The position numbers and the translations under genes were made by a program. Under the pieces are notes generated by a model that was not told the origin of the DNA, ran no database searches, and saw nothing but the letters and a program-made list of their open reading frames with translations. From Hydrogenivirga caldilitoris (GTDB taxonomy: Bacteria; Aquificota; Aquificia; Aquificales; Aquificaceae), in contig NZ_RCCJ01000001.1 of NCBI RefSeq assembly GCF_003664005.1, positions 1,116,001 to 1,180,000 of the forward strand: a stretch of DNA of 64,000 nt, in the 5' to 3' direction. Each line of letters begins with the position of its first letter. The stretch's first letter is position 1. Positions 33,479-34,372 of this stretch are shown here, one piece after another.

Positions 33479-34372
33479 ATGAAACTGTTGGTTTTTCTTT
33501 TATCGGTATTCTTCTCCGTATCCTGGGCTGATGAGTTCATAGAAAACATGATAAAGAAGCTTGATGAAAGGGGGGACAAAGCCTGGTGGTGGGATGAGAG
33601 GTGGTGGAACGATGGATACATAGAGCCTCCTAAGAATTATCAGGTTGAGGTTAACTGGGTTACCGTAAAGAACGGAGAGGTTGAGATTCCCGTGATGGTA
33701 GCCAGACCCAGAGAGAAAGGTAAGTTTCCGGGCGTTCTCTTCCTTCATGGAAGAAGGGGTTTAGATGAGTTATTCCAGCTCCACGCCAAAAGACTGGCGG
33801 CGAGAGGCTTCATTGTTGTAGCACCAGACCTTTACACGGGAAGGTTTATAGAGAAGTTTCCAATTGAGCACGACCCAGTGGTTGAAGAGGACGCCAACAA
33901 GGTGCTGGACTATGCCCTATCAAGGGAAGATATAGAGCCTAAAAAGGTCTGCGTTTACGGGCTTACAAGGGGAGGTTTTTACTCCCTCAGGCTTCTCGTG
34001 GCAAAGAACAGGCAGGTTAGGGACATAGCTTGCTGGGTTGGATACTATCCTCACCTGCAGGACCCAAACAGACCAGAACCCATGCAGGTTTACAGGTATC
34101 ACGAAGATATAGAGAAGGTTACAGTTCCCGTAATGTTCTTCGTTGGAAGCGAGGAGCAGTATCAGCGGCTTAGACCAGCTCTTATGGCGATTGACTACCT
34201 GAAGAGCCATGGGAGAGAGGCATATATAGTCGTTTACCCAGGAGTTGGAAGGGGCTTTGACTTCAGGGATGGGAACAGAAGAAGGTTTGCCGATGACCTT
34301 GCCTCAAAGGACGCTATAGTGAGAGCGGCAAAGTTCATGGAAAAAAACCTTAAAGTTAAAGAAAGTCCTTGA
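33479..34372 (+). CDS. Secreted dienelactone-hydrolase homologue, catalytic triad altered
   Basis: A 297-residue alpha/beta hydrolase of the dienelactone hydrolase family with signal peptide (LLVFLLSVFFSVSWA) and a start preceded by GGAGGGTGA. The fold motifs FPGVLFLHGRRGLDE and FIVVAPDLYTGR are clear. The nucleophile elbow, normally GxCxGG or GxSxGG, reads GLTRGG, so Cys/Ser is Thr. The His motif, normally PGxxHxF, reads PGVGRGFDF, so His is Arg. The Asp position is EE. It is probably not a hydrolase; a binding role in the periplasm is possible. The tryptophan-rich AWWWDERWW stretch near the start is unusual. Confidence 0.83.
   Translation: MKLLVFLLSVFFSVSWADEFIENMIKKLDERGDKAWWWDERWWNDGYIEPPKNYQVEVNWVTVKNGEVEIPVMVARPREKGKFPGVLFLHGRRGLDELFQLHAKRLAARGFIVVAPDLYTGRFIEKFPIEHDPVVEEDANKVLDYALSREDIEPKKVCVYGLTRGGFYSLRLLVAKNRQVRDIACWVGYYPHLQDPNRPEPMQVYRYHEDIEKVTVPVMFFVGSEEQYQRLRPALMAIDYLKSHGREAYIVVYPGVGRGFDFRDGNRRRFADDLASKDAIVRAAKFMEKNLKVKESP

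Follow-up and report, generated by a model that had tools for sequence, protein, structure and literature searches.

What would an apparently exported protein with a dienelactone hydrolase (DLH) fold do when all three positions of the catalytic triad carry other residues? The question is posed by a gene on the forward strand (33479–34372) of the window, the 64,000-nucleotide stretch of the Hydrogenivirga caldilitoris genome analyzed here. Its ORF and translation, a Pfam DLH match, and an AlphaFold2 model describe a DLH-fold protein of 297 aa, apparently exported, whose triad positions read Thr-Glu-Arg. An initial annotation had called it a conserved pseudoenzyme that may bind a ligand or act in the cell envelope.

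Fold and active-site positions of the DLH-like protein

The protein matches Pfam DLH (PF01738) at 1.7e-15 (57.6 bits against a cut-off of 21), and AlphaFold2 yields a confident α/β-hydrolase fold (pLDDT, 92.8; pTM, 0.90). By Foldseek, the nearest solved folds were DLHs and esterases; 4zv9 matched at E=2.5e-14, and 7jiz and 3f67 were among the top six. With the DLH family (nearest solved members 4zv9, 3f67, 9bld, and 7jiz) the protein shares its fold, the order of strands and loops, the HGxxG and PGVxxGF loops, and the nucleophile elbow. Its best NCBIfam match is the YghX family hydrolase NF041440 (1.8e-08), which is similar in total length; the score of 33.9 bits, however, is far under the curated cut-off of 460.

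The protein and its relatives differ from PF01738 by predicted export, an extra Trp-rich N-terminal segment, an invariant set of Arg, and two invariant Cys; the identity to canonical DLHs of related genomes is ~25%. The putative signal peptide (residues 1–17; 33479–33529) is a hydrophobic N-terminal stretch ending at SWA/DE. A simple hydrophobicity test picks out such an N terminus in 101 of 105 family proteins, and no lipobox was found in the 105 checked. A conserved tryptophan cluster, WWWDERWW (residues 36–43; 33584–33607), lies further along; in an alignment of 84 family members, W37 is present in all, and W38 and W42 in 82 each.

The substitutions described in the initial annotation were confirmed in GLTRGG (residues 161–166; 33959–33976), GSEEQY (223–228), and PGVGRGF (254–260), which place T163, E226, and R258 on the triad positions. 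In profile alignments to solved DLHs, using a profile of 70 relatives, T163 aligns with the catalytic Cys of 4zv9 (in GFCYGG) or Ser of 8fjd (in GHSRGG), E226 with the Asp of 3f67 (in GAKD), and R258 with the His of 4zv9 (in YPGVNHGF). These residues follow, in the AlphaFold2 model, strands 152–162, 218–223, and 248–253, which by secondary-structure order makes theirs the canonical loops. A proper Ser/Cys-Asp-His set was also sought elsewhere in the protein, and none aligns.

An ordinary periplasmic DLH or esterase with misaligned catalytic residues would account for the Pfam score above cut-off and for the DLHs among the best Foldseek matches. Against this, the alignments to several solved DLHs concur on T163, E226, and R258, and a site of this type is common to 107 family members, whereas 18 of 18 distant DLH homologs, mostly from other Aquificota genomes, have Cys/Asp/His. 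We consider this explanation highly improbable.

Extent and conservation of the family

A genome-wide scan returned 232 relatives. The best of these outside Aquificaceae belong to gammaproteobacterial sulfur oxidizers (46–58% identity), and the family reaches genera such as Thioalkalivibrio and Thiohalophilus. The scan may be biased, because its seed peptides contained R258; a profile search of 276 gammaproteobacterial genomes used no R258-containing seed peptides. There the family boundary was sharp, with 27 members at E<1e-125 and the next matches at 1e-11. Within Aquificota, orthologs occur in 17 of 136 genomes, all in one taxonomic family, and form one clade in the tree. Every one of them keeps the substitutions (one with Ser for Thr), the check that the initial annotation proposed for Aquificae homologs, and so do relatives far beyond. 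No family member was found in plasmid records or viral contigs.

Across 107 distinct family sequences, the position of the catalytic His is Arg in all. The nucleophile position holds Thr in 103 and Ser in three, one sequence being unread there, and the acid position holds Glu in 99 and Asp in eight. The Cys/Ser-Asp-His triad that marks PF01738 is thus replaced by Thr/Ser-Glu/Asp-Arg in 107 sequences. Judged by profile and fold, the protein is within the DLH superfamily; judged by its triad residues, it is not a functional dienelactone hydrolase. The family, defined by a DLH fold with a Thr/Ser-Glu/Asp-Arg site, is apparently so far unnamed.

Conservation extends around these positions. Wherever they could be read in the 107 sequences, R92, R164, R230, R232, R263, R268, C158, and C185 are invariant, as are Q194, N197, E200, Q227, Y228, D261, and D272. 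Together with R93 and R258, the six Arg in this set make up eight near-invariant Arg in the family. R92 sits in the oxyanion-loop motif HGRRG (residues 90–94; 33746–33760), and R164 directly follows T163. Q227, Y228, R230, and R232 belong to the acid loop GSEEQYQRLR (34145–34174), and D261 and R263 to PGVGRGFDFR (34238–34267). C158 (33950–33952; 106 of 106) lies ahead of the nucleophile elbow and C185 (34031–34033; 107 of 107) beyond it; both are on core strands, and canonical DLHs have no Cys at the aligned positions. They may form a disulfide or have a sulfur-reactive role. Between congeners, dN/dS is ~0.03–0.07, an approximate value since synonymous sites are near saturation. Such strong purifying selection excludes decay, and by this measure the family is old and constrained, neither a decaying gene nor a chance ORF.

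The protein might still be an enzyme, a noncanonical hydrolase or transferase with a Thr/Ser nucleophile, helped by a relocated H131 or H192 or by Arg258, and acting on a thiosulfonate, polythionate, or thioester. The nucleophile position is Thr/Ser in 106 of 106 sequences and the acid position Glu/Asp in 107 of 107. H131 (33869–33871; 105 of 106) and H192, in the motif YYPHxQDPN (34052–34054; 105 of 107), are almost invariant and lie, in the AlphaFold2 model, in loops just before helix 134–148 and just after strand 183–189. Catalysis therefore keeps a place, as the hydroxyl and acid functions are retained along with these two candidate His. The base position, however, is Arg without exception, and threonine is an unusual nucleophile for an α/β-hydrolase; we regard an altered enzyme as rather unlikely. 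The term conserved pseudoenzyme accordingly fits in part: a conserved, exported-type DLH fold without the canonical triad stands, whereas a noncatalytic status is unproven when Thr/Ser, Glu/Asp, H131, and H192 are all kept. Neuroligins and NDRG proteins are α/β-hydrolase-fold nonenzymes that have lost the triad. The likeness considered here is that of the fold; the present family is bacterial, predicted to be periplasmic, of the DLH branch, and Sox-associated.

Association with Sox genes and a SoxH-like domain

Each of the 27 gammaproteobacterial genomes that carry the family has SoxB above the curated cut-off, compared with 116 of 276 overall (Fisher 1e-11). Among the Aquificota positives, 16 of 17 encode SoxB, and the remaining one has a 507-bit fragment. 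With that fragment counted, the positives in these two sets of genomes are all SoxB-encoding sulfur oxidizers, and they belong to two distant phyla. DsrA was present in 24 of the 27 gammaproteobacterial positives, plus a fragment, versus 35 of 53 SoxB-positive genomes lacking the family. SoxC (2/27 versus 12/53) was dropped as a negative marker because the difference is not significant, and RuBisCO (26/27 versus 45/53) was dropped as a discriminator because it does not separate the two groups within Gammaproteobacteria. Since nearly all of these positives bear RuBisCO, the Sox link is partly confounded by lithoautotrophy at large. The link is a phylogenetic profile whose p-values ignore kinship among genomes; they overstate it, because genomes are not independent and the Aquificota members are one clade. 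Many SoxB-positive genomes lack the DLH-like protein, which is therefore not essential to Sox. With these limits, a genomic link between the family and Sox-type sulfur oxidation is well supported by gene content in two phyla. On this distribution, the family is linked to Sox in two phyla and is not a general envelope protein of Aquificae.

In the window's own genome, the DLH-like gene (at 1.149 Mb) lies outside the sox operon (about 1.571–1.578 Mb). That run combines a thioredoxin-like gene and soxYZAXB with a pair of DUF302 genes and one gene for a SoxH-like metallo-β-lactamase (MBL). The MBL, downstream of soxB, has an intact zinc motif (L162:6101-12554; G000:C1 about 1571100-1577553). The same genome has an sHdr-type run in the order DsrE-HdrC-B-A-(unknown)-C-B-DsrE-LbpA-like-radical SAM (L188:1686-10058; G000:C1 about 445000-453600), with an LbpA-like GcvH and HdrC/B/A-like proteins. 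When all ORFs around 80 loci were clustered, most genomes had no conserved neighbor of the DLH-like gene, and inference from gene neighborhood was dropped, there being no conserved operon besides the MBL fusion or adjacency described below. A secreted-looking amidohydrolase gene (PF04909) occurs shortly downstream of the fused gene at L107:4591-5517 and at four other loci.

In at least 13 proteins from one gammaproteobacterial clade, the DLH-like protein is fused to a C-terminal MBL domain of ~300 aa. The domain is closest to the SoxH-related models TIGR04559 and TIGR04558, with scores under the TIGR cut-offs, and is related to the MBL found downstream of soxB in the window's genome. The THxHxDH zinc motif of MBLs (THYHTDH) reads ENGQGHA in the fused form, so that HxHxDH is replaced. 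The altered motif is also kept in separate-gene relatives from other genomes. At two loci (L085 and L090), the corresponding MBL has a gene of its own, which lies immediately upstream of the DLH-like gene. The altered-motif MBL occurs in 19 of the 276 genomes, all 19 SoxB positive; nine encode the DLH-like protein and ten do not. Because the fusion forms essentially one clade in the tree, with two separate-gene cases nested inside, we counted it once and rejected it as repeated independent evidence. SoxH-like MBLs with NxQxHA for HxHxDH, fused or separate, were seen at L044:5920-7716, L075, L080, L083, and other loci, with further cases at L085:1962-2855, L090:2113-3006, and L164-L182. At one locus inside the fused clade (L056:6794-7035), an MBL remnant lies in two frames downstream of the DLH-like gene, reflecting a frameshift, a sequencing error, or decay.

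A fusion to a second domain with an altered active site would also fit a factor with a structural, chaperone, or protein-docking function in the periplasm of chemolithoautotrophs, serving, for example, c-type cytochromes or Sox carriers and having no small-molecule ligand. The conserved Trp cluster, in an N-terminal segment outside the catalytic core, points the same way. Conservation is nevertheless centered on the canonical active-site loops, where the many invariant Arg have the look of a ligand site, and we judge a purely structural role improbable.

A possible role in sulfur oxidation

Taken from its residues and distribution, the DLH-like protein is probably not an ordinary hydrolase but a periplasmic participant in sulfur oxidation that has so far gone unrecognized. 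Our preferred reading, tentative and a little short of even confidence, is that it is a noncanonical periplasmic protein which serves Sox-dependent sulfur oxidation by binding an anionic sulfur ligand at an arginine-rich site and does not hydrolyze esters. We infer the role in the pathway, the anionic ligand, and the absence of hydrolysis alike.

The protein would work in the Sox-dependent oxidation of reduced sulfur, in hosts that mostly lack SoxC and would hand sulfane sulfur over to rDsr or sHdr in the cytoplasm. From the predicted topology, Arg258 would face Thr163 and pair with Glu226. The pocket would then be lined by these three residues, with Thr163 at the helix N terminus, and by Arg164 and the oxyanion-loop residue Arg92. 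Having the last two around the helix N terminus, such a site would suit an anion. Because the protein occurs in sulfur oxidizers, the simplest ligand would be a thiosulfonate or an oxoanion of sulfur; thiosulfate, a polythionate, or a protein-bound thiosulfonate might be bound without ester hydrolysis.

A literature search found no papers tying dienelactone hydrolases to sulfur oxidation; one purple sulfur bacterium proteome has a "dienelactone hydrolase" entry, matched by name only (PMC6413534). A possible but doubtful formulation is that the family constitutes a new component of periplasmic thiosulfate or sulfane-sulfur oxidation in two phyla, whose Thr/Ser-Glu/Asp-Arg site binds or transforms a sulfur oxoanion or a carrier-protein thiosulfonate and which, in one lineage, is fused to a remodeled SoxH-like MBL.

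Family libraries match the protein as a dienelactone hydrolase alone, a label that misleads for at least 107 distinct proteins. To our knowledge, how SoxYZ-bound sulfane sulfur passes from the periplasm to cytoplasmic Dsr or sHdr in organisms without SoxCD is still unsolved. Conserved, apparently exported, and following the occurrence of SoxB in both Gammaproteobacteria and Aquificota, the DLH-like protein is a concrete candidate for this transfer or for a neighboring step.
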